The notes under the pieces are model-generated. The model was not told the origin of the DNA. It saw only the letters and a list, made by a program, of their open reading frames with translations, and ran no database searches. Shown one piece after another: positions 39,163 to 42,884 of a stretch of 63,067 bases of DNA. Each line of letters starts with the position of its first letter. The stretch's first letter is position 1. The stretch comes from Terriglobia bacterium (GTDB lineage Bacteria; Acidobacteriota; Terriglobia; Bryobacterales; Bryobacteraceae). The stretch spans positions 1 to 63,067 of the forward strand of contig JANYDS010000031.1 in assembly GCA_025363475.1 (NCBI GenBank). Reading direction: 5' to 3'. The translations under genes and the position numbers were made by a program.

Positions 39163-39387
39163 AAAAACGTGACAGTGACTTTGCCGGAAGAAGTCGCCTA
39201 TTGGGCAAGAACCAGAGCGGCGGAAGAGAATACATCCGTATCCCGTTTGATCGGCAAAATGCTGGAAGCACAGATGCGTCAAAGCGACGACTATGCAGAT
39301 GCGTACCGCCGGTGGAAGGCATTGCCCGGGCTGGAGATCGATGCGGCCAATCGTTTGACCCGGGACGAAGCAAATGCCCGCAGATAG
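39157..39387 (+). CDS. Ribbon-helix-helix antitoxin of the second vapBC
   Basis: 76 aa from the GTG at 39157. LKNVTVTLPEEVAYWARTRA and ENTSVSRLIGKMLEAQM are the strand and helices of an RHH domain; the acidic C-terminal half binds toxin. It overlaps the toxin gene by 14 bp. A longer start within the TGTTTTCG repeats is not supported because the conserved domain begins here. Confidence 0.8.
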   Translation: MLKNVTVTLPEEVAYWARTRAAEENTSVSRLIGKMLEAQMRQSDDYADAYRRWKALPGLEIDAANRLTRDEANARR

Positions 39388-39814
39388 CTGGTTCACCGAT
39401 ACCAATCTGCTCTTGTATTCTTTCGACGCCCGCGACGCACTCAAGCGCTCAATGGCCAACAAGTGGATTGACTACCTCTGGCAGACCGGATCGGGGCGCC
39501 TTAGCTGGCAGGTGCTCAATGAGTTTTACGCAAACTCAGTGCGTAAGACAGGAGTGTCGGCAGGTGAGGCACGAGACGCGGTAAGAATTTTTGGACAGTG
39601 GCAGCCATTAGGAATCAATGCGGCCTTGGTTGAACAGGCGTGGTACTGGATGGACCTGGCACAGGTTTCCTATTGGGACGGCCTGATTCTCGCTTCGGCG
39701 CAAAGGCTGGGGTGCAAGTGGCTGCTGAGTGAAGATTTTCAGCATGGCCGCGCCTATGAAGGCGTGACGGTTGTCAATCCGTTCGCCGAGTTGCCGCCTT
39801 CACCGAAGCGGTAA
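39374..39814 (+). CDS. VapC-like PIN-domain toxin
   Basis: 146 aa. PIN-domain acids are in WFTDTNLLLYSFDARDAL (Asp9), QVLNEFYANSVRKTG, VSYWDGLILASAQRLGC and LSEDFQHGR. It should be an RNase that targets tRNA or rRNA, neutralised by the RHH protein in front. Frame intact, stop at 39812-39814, convergent with the collagen-like gene. Confidence 0.85.
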   Translation: MPADSWFTDTNLLLYSFDARDALKRSMANKWIDYLWQTGSGRLSWQVLNEFYANSVRKTGVSAGEARDAVRIFGQWQPLGINAALVEQAWYWMDLAQVSYWDGLILASAQRLGCKWLLSEDFQHGRAYEGVTVVNPFAELPPSPKR

Positions 39815-39815
39815 T

Positions 39816-41392
39816 TTACTGGATTCGTACGATGACGAGGTGTGCGGATACCGCGCGGGTCCCTCTTGCTGTTGGCGTGATTGTCAGGGCGGTGGGGTTG
39901 CCTGCGGGATTACGAACAGTGAGCGATGAATTGATGGCGGTGGTCGTCACGAGGGAAACTCCGAAAATCTGGCTGGTACCGGTTGCGCGCCCGACGACCG
40001 TATTGGGAAGGTCAGCCCCGTTGAGCGTCACGATCAACTGCCCAGGTTCATTAACACTCACCTGAAAACGTGACCTGATACGTCCCGACGGCTGCGAGGT
40101 TAAATGCGGACGGACTGGTGCGCGCGATGCCGATTCCAGACGCGGGTCCGTCCCGCGGAAAAACGACGTCTGAACCAACGGCGATTGTGGCGGCGTTGTC
40201 AGTTGGCATCAGGGCATAAACATCGGCGAAATCCGTGACGCCATTCGAGCCAGTGGGGCCGGTGGCTCCGGCTGGGCCTGTCGCGCCCGTCGATCCCGTG
40301 GCCCCGTTCGTACCAGTTGCTCCGGTCGGCCCGGTAGAACCAGTTACTCCGGTAGCGCCATTGGTGCCGTTCGTTCCCGCCGCGCCTGTCAAGCCGGTGG
40401 CCCCTATGAGAGTTGTACAGCTACCCGGCCATGACCCAGAAGCCTTCGGTCCATACAAGCAACTGTTGGCCGTGTTGACGTAAAAGTCACCATTGACCCC
40501 GGTCCCGCTGCTGGGCACACCCGCGCCACTGAGGACTGTATTACCGTTCGTGCCCGTTGCTCCGGTCGGCCCGGTAGAACCAGTTGCTCCGGTAGCGCCA
40601 TTGATGCCGTTCGTTCCCGCCGCGCCGGTCGAGCCAGTGGCTCCAGCAGCACCTGCTAAACCCAACGCGCCCGTGGCTCCGGTCAAGCCCGCTACTCCGT
40701 TGCTGCCGGCTGTACCCGTTGGCTCCCGTGAGACCGGTGGCTCCGGCCCGCGCCAGCAGGCTCCAGTTTGTAGAATCACCGTCCGGCATTGCCTGTCCAG
40801 TGTTGGCCAGCAACGCAACCCAGGATGAAGCATCGGAATTCACCACATCATAAGGGACGTAGCTGGCTCCCAAAATGAACGCACCCCGAACGGCATACCC
40901 CTGTCCCTCTGAACCTGTCGCGCCGTTCAAGCCGCTGGCACCGCTGGTTCCTGCCGGTCCGGTGACACTGGCACCCGCCGCGCCCGCCGTGTCGGGCGGA
41001 CCGGTGGCACCAGCCTTCGCGAGCAGGCTCCATAATGCAGGACTGCTGTCCGGCGCATGATTGAGATTGCCAGTTTGCAGCGAAATATAGCTGCCGCTGC
41101 TGAAGCTCACCGCATCATTCAGTGCGTAAGGTGTGGCTGAATTCCAAGTCTGCTGCCAAGTCAAACCTGCCGGGCCCATGTCACCGTTATTACCCTGAAT
41201 TCCCTGCCCGCCCTGAAAACCCTGGGTACCCTGAAAGCCCTGCAGCCCCGAAATACCTTGTGGCCCCTGCCCCCCGGAAGTACCCGCCGGACCCTGCGGA
41301 GCGGTCGCGCCAACTGGCCCCATGGGTCCAGTCGGCCCGGAAGCTCCGGTGACTCCAATGGGACCCGCGACTCCGGAACTGGCTCCCAGCAC
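39816..41392 (-). pseudogene. Collagen-like repeat protein with BclA-like C-terminal domain, two frameshifts
   Basis: Reading from 41392, one frame gives [19 protein letters not shown] and long Gly-X-Y runs, with non-collagen segments (YALNDAVSFSSGSYISLQTG) typical of tail-fibre-like proteins. At 40719-40720 an extra base breaks the frame; removing it restores [20 protein letters not shown] second extra base in the TTTT at 40065-40068 breaks the C-terminal domain, which otherwise reads [19 protein letters not shown] and ARGTRAVSAHLVIVRIQ, a BclA/C1q-like end. No signal peptide is visible and the 5' end abuts a PIN-toxin remnant. Either decayed or two assembly errors. Confidence 0.8.
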
Positions 41393-41430: not shown

Positions 41431-41628
41431 GCAGTTTTCACCCGATTGATTTCGAGACTTCACATCTGGCCCATCGACGTGGCAGTCTGTCGGAAATCAA
41501 TCGAACTCGATTTCACCGGTGATCCGGCCGACGAATTGATCGCGGCCACAAGCATCATTCATGCGGTGCCATTGGTCACCAGGGACAGAAAGATTCGGCG
41601 ATCGAAGATCGTACCCCTGGCAGCTTAG
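41431..41628 (+). pseudogene. VapC (PIN) C-terminal remnant
   Basis: The frame LISRLHIWPIDVAVCRKSIE, DFTGDPADELIAATSIIHAV and VTRDRKIRRSKIVPLA matches the C-terminal half of PIN toxins, including the conserved DPADELIAATA and LVTRD. The N-terminal half with the first acidic residues is missing; the collagen-like gene begins on the other strand right beside it. A dead toxin fragment. Confidence 0.75.
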
Positions 41629-41686
41629 CTTGCCTGGCTCTGGAATACGCTTTGAAATACGCAGCCCGGTCTCATTTTGAATCTGA

Positions 41687-41692
41687 TATACT
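41687..41692 (+). promoter_or_regulatory. -10 element upstream of the aroF leader
   Basis: TATACT preceded by TG (extended -10) ten bases before the leader-peptide ATG. No convincing -35 at the right distance, which an extended -10 does not require. Confidence 0.45.
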
Positions 41693-41701
41693 CGTGGGTT
41701 A

Positions 41702-41755
41702 ATGAACCGCGCCGCCCGCTATTTTAGCTATTGGTTTTGGAGCCCCACCCCATAG
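41702..41755 (+). CDS. Aromatic-rich leader peptide of the aroF attenuator
   Basis: A 17-codon frame, ATG to TAG: MNRAARYFSYWFWSPTP. Six of 17 residues are aromatic, in the order Tyr-Phe-x-Tyr-Trp-Phe-Trp, ending just before a hairpin-forming region and the attenuator terminator in front of a DAHP synthase gene. Leader peptides whose regulatory codons match the end product of the pathway are the hallmark of ribosome-mediated attenuation (trp, phe and his operons). Here all three end products of the shikimate pathway would be sensed. The ribosome site is weak (GGG at 41696-41698). Translation has not been shown. Confidence 0.7.
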   Translation: MNRAARYFSYWFWSPTP

Positions 41756-41759
41756 TGGC

Positions 41760-41818
41760 GTTGGTTTAACACGTTTTAAGCTGTAAACAACCAACCCACT
41801 CTCCGGAGTGGGTTTTTT
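41760..41818 (+). terminator. Attenuator: antiterminator/terminator pair before aroF
   Basis: Terminator: AACCCACTC (41793-41801), loop TCCG, GAGTGGGTT (41806-41814), followed by TTTTATTTT, a strong intrinsic terminator only 23 bp before the aroF start. Competing pairing: GTTGG followed by TTTA (41760-41768) with TAAA...CCAAC (41784-41795); its 3' arm overlaps the 5' arm of the terminator, so only one can form. The leader peptide ends at 41755. This is the arrangement expected for attenuation; energies were not computed. Confidence 0.7.
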
Positions 41819-41840
41819 ATTTTAGGGAAGGTTTTTCAAG

Positions 41841-42884
41841 ATGATCATTTCAATGCGGCCCCACGCGACTAAAGAGGAGGTGGACTATGTCCGCGAACGA
41901 ATTCAGGATTTCGGTTTTAAAGTTCACTCCATCAACGGCGAGGAGAGAGTTGTGATCGGCGTCGTAGGTGTTGGCGGCGATGTAACGGCCTGCCTTGAAT
42001 CCCTTGAAGCCACTCCGGGTGTCGAAAAGGCTATGCGGATTTCCGCGCCGTATAAATTCGTCAGTAAAGAGTTCCGCAGCGAAAAGACGGTGATCCGCGT
42101 GGGCAAAGCTGCCATTGGCGGTGATGACTTCATCACCATGGCTGGCCCGTGCTCTGTAGAAAGCGAAAAACAGATCATGGAAACCGCTGAAGCGGTAGCC
42201 GAAGCGGGCGCCACGATTCTCCGCGGCGGTGCCTTCAAACCCCGCACGTCGCCCTATGATTTCCAGGGCATGGAAGAGGAAGGGCTGAAACTTCTGGCTA
42301 AGGCGCGCACAGCAACCGGCCTCGCCATCATCACCGAAGTGATGAGCGACCGCGATGTGTCCATGGTGGCCGAATATGCCGACATCATGCAGATTGGCGC
42401 GCGCAACATGCAGAACTTTGCGCTGCTCAAAGTGCTGGGCAAATGTGGACGTCCGATTCTGTTGAAGCGCGGCCTTTCATCCACCATTAAAGAACTGCTG
42501 ATGTCGGCGGAATACATTGTTGCGCATGGCAATCCGGACGTCATGCTCTGCGAGCGCGGCATCCGCACGTTTGAAACGGCGACCCGCAACACCTGTGATA
42601 TTTCGGCAGTGCCGGTGCTCAATGAACTCACTCATCTGCCCGTGATTCTTGACCCCAGCCATGCGGTGGGCAAACGCAGCCTAGTTCCTGCACTGGCGAA
42701 GGCCGGCGTTGCGGTGGGTGCGGACGGGATGATTGTTGAAGTACATCCCTGCCCCGAAAAGGCGATCAGTGATGGTGCACAGTCGCTCACAATTCCGGGC
42801 TTCCATCAGATGATGCATCAACTGGCCCCGTATATCGCGCTCTGGAAAATGGAACGCGAGGCCATGATGGCCGTCGCGGTCTAA
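41841..42884 (+). CDS. aroF: 3-deoxy-7-phosphoheptulonate (DAHP) synthase
   Basis: 347 aa, the short class I-beta form with an N-terminal ferredoxin-like domain (~1-75: [20 protein letters not shown]) and the TIM-barrel with its signatures: [46 protein letters not shown], and [12 protein letters not shown]. It condenses phosphoenolpyruvate and erythrose-4-phosphate, the first step of aromatic amino-acid synthesis. GGGAAGG upstream is the ribosome site. The attenuator 5' of it would lower expression when aromatic amino acids are plentiful. A small protein gene follows 9 bp downstream. Confidence 0.95.

Follow-up and report, generated by a model that had tools for sequence, protein, structure and literature searches.

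The trpL and pheL leaders of Escherichia coli consist of a leader open reading frame (ORF), an antiterminator and a terminator, in the same order as at the locus studied here, and each of them serves one amino acid and has a ribosome-binding site. In the same bacterium, isoenzymes are each controlled by their own amino acid. An aroR leader before aroF was reportedly described in Corynebacterium glutamicum by Neshat and colleagues in 2014. The available parts of three papers present this leader peptide, with Phe-Tyr-Phe, as a ribosome-mediated attenuation system located before aroF (PMC11802643, PMC4046766, PMC7356990). According to excerpts of a further paper, transcription of the C. glutamicum ilvBNC attenuator starts one nucleotide from the start codon of a mixed-amino-acid leader, and the first hairpin is an antiantiterminator that also blocks leaderless initiation (PMC11857589). 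Similarly, in Sinorhizobium meliloti trpL the leader's ATG forms the 5′ end of the attenuator RNA, according to the accessible portion of PMC7298713. The excerpted text of Naville and Gautheret (2010, PMC2965389) gives almost no associated functions for the attenuators predicted in Acidobacteria, and that of PMC1262725 reports no conserved RNA structures before the phenylalanine or tyrosine operons of Actinobacteria.

The window, which is the whole stretch of 63,067 nucleotides of a Terriglobia bacterium that was analysed, contains a leader ORF at 41702–41755 of the forward strand (ATG at 41702, TAG at 41753–41755). Its product MNRAARYFSYWFWSPTP was read from the sequence and corresponds to a conserved aromatic leader in relatives; the mixed aromatic codons that the earlier note had read there are present, six in number and in the order Y F Y W F W. 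The control codons TAT TTT AGC TAT TGG TTT TGG, assigned from the sequence and the spacing in relatives, span 41720–41740 (+), and the last TGG begins 16 nt upstream of the first paired base of segment 2, the 5′ strand of the antiterminator. The putative regulated gene at 41841–42884 (+) encodes 3-deoxy-7-phosphoheptulonate (DAHP) synthase, as had been claimed; it was assigned by PRK08673 (487.6 bits against a cut-off of 335) and TIGR01361, and its best solved relatives are 4grs and 1rzm/3pg9. We consider the element between the ORF start and this gene to control the DAHP synthase gene by ribosome-mediated attenuation of transcription, with a probability of about 0.88; the conservation, codon content, spacing, helices and covariation of the attenuator were observed directly.

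The intrinsic terminator is formed by segments 3 and 4 and a U-run at 41793–41818 (+), the very place that the earlier note gave for it. The nine-pair stem at 41793–41814 reads AACCCACTC-TCCG-GAGTGGGTT and is followed by the U-run; folding, a terminator scan and covariation all identified it. The folding energy of 41784–41822 was −15.9 kcal/mol (z −4.49), which none of 200 shuffles equalled, and the region 41700–41795 before the terminator was unremarkable when folded alone (z −1.17, 33 of 200 shuffles equally good). The earlier note had also proposed a competing pairing of 41760–41768 with 41784–41795. A competing pairing does exist, but its extent had been drawn too small, and what had been described is the section of the helix most distant from the terminator. 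The real helix joins 41754–41766 with 41789–41800 in 12 pairs, as read in the sequence and supported in relatives: 41754–41758 pairs with 41796–41800, C41759 is bulged and 41760–41766 pairs with 41789–41795. Its 5′ strand, segment 2 (AGTGGCGTTGGTT, 41754–41766, +), overlaps the stop codon, and its 3′ strand, segment 3 (AACCAACCCACTC, 41789–41801, +), has the 5′ arm of the terminator as its 3′ part; both were assigned from the duplex and from covariation in relatives. The duplex of AGTGGCGTTGGTT with AACCAACCCACT (41789–41800), with its one bulge, therefore occupies the 5′ arm of the terminator. In addition, the sequence CCAC at 41745–41748 (+), named segment 1 and absent from the earlier note, can form a short hairpin with 41755–41758. 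A hairpin of −3 kcal/mol or lower was found in the segment 1:2 region of 87 of 94 leaders, the pairs being taken together and not singly.

Some neighbouring features were seen by eye. The region 41470–41630 (+), just 5′ of the putative promoter, resembles the C terminus of a PIN-domain (VapC-like) protein whose start is missing, and a second PIN-like ORF is found at 39374–39814. Overlapping ORFs at 40051–41392 (−) carry collagen-like Gly-x-y repeats and are apparently different frames of one gene.

The distribution of the element was followed in related genomes, and all the sequences compared are related by descent. When loci were chosen by the DAHP synthase protein alone (the best 30 relatives, 18 of them from the genus of the window), an aromatic leader ORF was present in the same place in 26 of 30; of the other four, L020 encodes a peptide with one aromatic residue, and nothing of the kind was seen at L026, L028 and L031. 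From 24 of the 26 leader-bearing loci a covariance model, R1, was built, which matched 155 of 237 genomes of the window's family, in 52 of 76 genera, under the stricter filters, which left 82 of the 237 without a match. It also matched 124 of 399 genomes in the class sample (by hand count, 65 matches in the window's family, 4 in f3, 24 in f6, 29 in f7 and 2 in f11) and 3 of 297 in a sample of the phylum, each of them in the window's family. The window's own genome has a single match and no further copies. The flanks of 100 matches, hand-picked from the family and class results so as to represent different genera (G209, G349 and G299 gave two each), were searched by tblastn, and DAHP synthase was directly downstream in 96. 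The four loci without such a match were L217, L218, L228, where the start downstream of the match reads MIFSMRQDATKEQIE, and L238, which is a 216-base stretch at a contig edge in the same genome as L237. The two f11 matches, L217 and L218, were rejected as attenuators; having no DAHP synthase behind them, they are only terminators of other genes. Most of the 80 named enzyme relatives that were kept carry Bryobacterales, Bryobacteraceae, Candidatus Solibacter, Sulfopaludibacter, Terriglobia, Acidobacteriia or Acidobacteria titles, and two are titled otherwise, a Patescibacteria and a Bordetella. Soil members of the class Terriglobia appear to carry a leader gene rich in Phe, Tyr and Trp codons before DAHP synthase.

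The codon content and spacing were measured in a model alignment of 100 of the 123 parsed leader loci, which includes 13 of the 24 sequences used to build R1; about two dozen further fetched R1 matches were left out, and 6 of 106 matches were dropped from the leader statistics as antisense, terminator-only or second matches. ATG or GTG stood in the aligned start column of 95 of the 100 loci. The five rows without a start codon there (L029, L165, L211, L201 and L254) were dropped; an ATG leader lies near each of them by another parsing, which itself selects on aromatic content. Of the 95, all but L229, which was dropped for lack of a scored terminator, could be assigned both an antiterminator and a terminator, leaving 94. 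In the 95 leaders, aromatic codons made up 605 of 1759 codons (34%) in frame against 149 of 1664 (9%) and 122 of 1664 (7%) in the other two frames. Phe, Tyr and Trp were all present in 83 of 95 leaders, Phe and Tyr in 9 and Phe and Trp in 3; by family, all three were kept in 55/65 leaders of f1, 3/4 of f3, 13/14 of f6 and 11/11 of f7 (94 leaders). The number, order and identity of the aromatic residues differ between genera, and synonymous codons are mixed across the leaders (TTT 201, TTC 84, TAC 110, TAT 74).

In the 94 leaders, the distance from the start of the last aromatic codon to segment 2 has a median of 16 nt (interquartile range 15–18), the stop codon lies about at the edge of segment 2 (median −1, 10th–90th percentile −10 to +16) and the antiterminator and the terminator overlap by a median of 11 nt, with a minimum of 6. 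Aromatic codons numbered 575 of 1427 at a distance of at least 12 nt from segment 2 and 22 of 311 nearer to it, and their fraction jumps from 14% at 12–14 nt to 66% at 15–17 nt. Read with the known size of the ribosome footprint, this edge at about 15 nt marks the distance at which a ribosome halted on such a codon would just touch segment 2 with its leading side.

The effect of ribosome position was simulated in the 94 leaders by masking the ribosome and folding the RNA up to segment 3, in two variants that kept the RNA on both sides or only downstream. The mean probability of helix 2:3 was 0.34 without a ribosome. It was 0.71 (both sides) or 0.82 (downstream only) with the ribosome on aromatic codons, and only 0.10 or 0.22 once the ribosome stood on the stop codon. 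The three kinds of aromatic codon, for Phe, Tyr and Trp, behaved alike (0.72, 0.74 and 0.65 in one variant; 0.84, 0.80 and 0.80 in the other). The remaining codons, when pooled, gave 0.58 or 0.67, so it is the position in the zone that counts and not the codon itself, and ribosomes stalled there on Ser or Arg codons would antiterminate too. For the window itself, the probability was 0.62 without a ribosome, 0.49–0.84 on the aromatic codons and 0.00 at the stop codon; the value without a ribosome, like those of L016 (0.83) and L221 (0.86), argues against default termination, or a strong off-state, in these leaders.

The same measurements bear on the possibility that this attenuator answers in practice to just one or two aromatic amino acids, such as Trp or Phe, with the rest as passengers. 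Trp codons lie nearest to segment 2 (median 22 nt, against 29 for Phe and 33 for Tyr) and the F-Y-F leader of C. glutamicum aroR responds to Phe limitation in the available part of PMC11802643, both of which would suit such control, but the retention of all three residues in 83 of 95 leaders, and in most leaders of each of the four families, together with the similar simulated effects of F, Y and W, speaks against it, and we regard it as possible though somewhat unlikely. Under the preferred reading of an attenuator with three inputs, we infer that the leader of DAHP synthase senses the whole aromatic pool.

The two mutually exclusive helices were then judged by covariation, counted over all 106 rows of alignment A3. 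Helix 2:3 was assessed on five measures, two of them weak. Paired bases made up 84.7% of its cells against 30–45% when the strands were slid, and 67 cells had changed on both sides against 37.4 in shuffles. The two weak measures were the number of pairs with a both-sided change (8 of 12 against 5.6, reached by 10 of 500 shuffles) and of further pair types (22 against 18.9, reached by 40 of 500 shuffles). The last two pairs of the helix are frequently broken. A locus's own segment 2 and 3 partners paired better than swapped ones in 80 of 94 cases, the swaps including members of the same genus. Compared with shuffled upstream sequence, which kept base composition only, the 2:3 duplex had a mean z of −2.1; only 49% of the duplexes were below −2, so single cases are not decisive. 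Helix 3:4 was 99.6% paired, with 11 cells of both-sided change against 0.6 in shuffles, figures that are favoured because A3 had been fitted to this helix. Segments 2, 3 and 4 have changed jointly in five loci. In L179 and L190, an A of segment 3 is replaced by G, and in both segment 2 and segment 4 a T is replaced by C; in L174, L175 and L192, the joint change gives GGGTGG/CCCACCC/GGGTGGG. Counter-examples are L183 and L231, in which segments 3 and 4 are altered and segment 2 is not, and L199 has kept only G-U in the terminator. Separately, the terminator of L229 and L232 was seen to have moved within segment 3, CCAGCC/GGCTGG replacing CCCACTC/GAGTGGG with segment 2 kept, as a natural re-design of the switch. 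The comparison of relatives that the earlier note had suggested thus bears out its proposal: mixed aromatic codons and both hairpins are kept in four families, and both helices covary, with the five three-way loci set against two counter-examples.

A putative extended −10 element, TGA-TATACT, was noticed in the sequence at 41684–41692 (+), 9 nt before the leader ATG, and was absent from the earlier note. A −10-like hexamer lies 8–9 nt 5′ of the ATG in 65 of 93 aligned leaders. A consensus promoter scan was negative, so the −10 claim rests on this conservation; the extended form was rejected as a general feature, TG being present in only 18 of the 93 leaders. A Shine-Dalgarno-like word precedes the leader in 2 of 95 loci and the DAHP synthase start, as placed by a loose pattern, in 66 of 95. 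The −10-like box at 8–9 nt from the ATG and the scarcity of Shine-Dalgarno words point to a leaderless mRNA, and the leader transcript is probably of this kind.

In the minimum-energy fold of 41700–41822, the start of the ORF at 41703–41715 (+), named segment 0 and also new relative to the earlier note, is paired with 41755–41768 of the segment 2 region, with the terminator retained. Segment 0 fits segment 2 better than the codon-shuffled mean in 80 of 94 leaders, 31 of the 94 being singly significant, and the partner that fits segment 2 best begins no more than 18 nt from the ATG in 98% of leaders against 57% of shuffles. Segment 0 is a possible anti-antiterminator.

From these features, the regulation would proceed as follows. 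Transcription would start at the leader ATG or only a few bases from it, giving a leaderless mRNA on which ribosomes load. A shortage of charged tRNA-Phe, -Tyr or -Trp would make the ribosome stall on an aromatic codon, nearly all of which lie at least 12 nt before segment 2; segment 2 would then be free to pair with segment 3, the terminator would not form and DAHP synthase would be transcribed. If all three are plentiful, the ribosome would reach the stop codon at the edge of segment 2 and cover it, and the 3:4 terminator would form. On RNA without a ribosome, pairing of segment 0 with segment 2 may tip the balance towards termination, which is the weakest step. Because any one of three amino acids could cause the stall, the attenuator would act as an OR gate over the aromatic pool. 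The stalling, the read-through, the leaderless start and the response to three amino acids are predictions of the model.

The aromatic residues are accompanied by a conserved Arg, which is unaccounted for by aromatic sensing. It stands between two aromatics in 66 of 94 leaders, Trp being at this place in the window, and no other non-aromatic residue has aromatics on both sides as often (86 of 194). CGA is the codon of 49 of the 86 flanked Arg residues and of 18 of the 120 Arg residues elsewhere in the leaders, and it accounts for 90 of 1458 Arg codons in the partial ORFs of 93 downstream genes; the sequences are related, and a test value would overstate the difference. In f6, CGA was used in none of 9 flanked-Arg cases. 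One idea is that CGA serves as a slow pacing codon. A fuller version of the model would combine a leaderless three-input OR gate for Phe, Tyr and Trp tRNA charging, the ORF start as an off-switch for untranslated RNA, and the conserved Arg codon, mostly CGA and rare in the neighbouring gene, pacing the ribosome onto the control codons as RNA polymerase passes segment 2; as a complete scheme this is speculative and, in our estimate, rather doubtful, the more so given the window's value of 0.62 without a ribosome.

Another possibility is that the leader peptide works in the manner of TnaC, with a nascent [FY]RFW motif arresting the ribosome in response to a free aromatic amino acid; the frequency of this Arg between aromatics, the best-kept non-aromatic feature of the leaders, fits that idea. 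An arrest motif is, however, hard to reconcile with aromatic residues that vary in number, order and identity, with the W that replaces R in the window, with the synonymous codons in use and with the agreement between the 15-nt cut-off and the footprint of a ribosome; we consider arrest improbable. That the leader is a chance ORF above an ordinary terminator between two genes, short ORFs being common and a terminator alone being presumably enough to end the upstream transcript, is so improbable in the face of the conservation, the frame-specific aromatic content, the promoter-like element and the covariation that it can be set aside in favour of the attenuator.

Other aromatic-pathway genes of the same genome were also inspected. 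A small ORF ending in ...RRYWFFSPLP overlaps the start of a trpE(G)-like gene (L260:704–793). The trpE(G) starts of this locus and 14 relatives were checked for an ATG or GTG ORF of 8–40 aa within 170 nt upstream, with L275 and more distant matches left out and 4 relatives lacking an anchor; none of the 10 anchored relatives had such an aromatic ORF, and the L260 ORF was set aside as chance. Prephenate dehydratase (PF00800) was not found in the window's genome, which is one of only two misses among 31 sampled genomes of the family (29 of 31 have it); the absence is perhaps an assembly gap.

Searches for a described family gave the following picture. Among Rfam models run on the whole window, only a tRNA reached its gathering score and none did so at the attenuator. 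In a permissive search of 41600–41900, the two best matches in bits were Trp_leader (RF00513; 23.4 bits, E 0.012, below its gathering cut-off of 41) and Phe_leader (RF01859; 22.7 bits, E 0.11, below its cut-off of 55), and a T-box riboswitch was absent among the 7 matches. In the open-access literature on leader peptides and attenuation, Acidobacteria, DAHP synthase and aromatic amino acids, the element is undescribed among the matches listed, as far as the available text of these papers extends, and likewise in the available parts of PMC2965389, PMC4833913, PMC1262725, PMC11802643, PMC4046766, PMC7356990, PMC11857589 and PMC7298713. The element would provide an acidobacterial attenuator whose target, signal and mechanism are clear in several families of the class. 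If one leader reads all three aromatics before the committed step, it would be a simple alternative to isoenzymes under separate amino acids. Moreover, as R1 matches more than 150 genomes of a single family, footprint geometry and multi-input attenuation can be tested directly on naturally occurring differences in codon order and spacing.

Set beside the known systems, the Terriglobia element is like trpL and pheL of E. coli in that the sub-threshold Rfam matches cover the same bases, although those leaders regulate other genes. As in trp-type attenuators generally, the leader ORF is rich in codons for the end products of the downstream pathway (34% in frame, with DAHP synthase behind it in 96 of 100), the terminator lies between the leader ORF and the gene, being scored in all parsed leaders except L229, and by computation a ribosome at the stop codon hides the antiterminator, whereas one at the control codons leaves it open. 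The proposed leaderless start resembles those of S. meliloti trpL and C. glutamicum ilvBNC, and the antiantiterminator hairpin of ilvBNC is the closest analogue of segment 0; both systems belong to other phyla, with trpL standing before trpE(G) and serving Trp, and ilvBNC serving the branched-chain amino acids and their gene. The nearest functional precedent is the C. glutamicum aroR leader before aroF, which likewise places aromatic codons before a DAHP synthase gene under attenuation; likened here by description, it belongs to another phylum and has Phe-Tyr-Phe with no Trp named. Taken together, the results give good support for an attenuator of a known, trp-type kind, with an unusual three-aromatic input, a probably leaderless start and a spread over four families.
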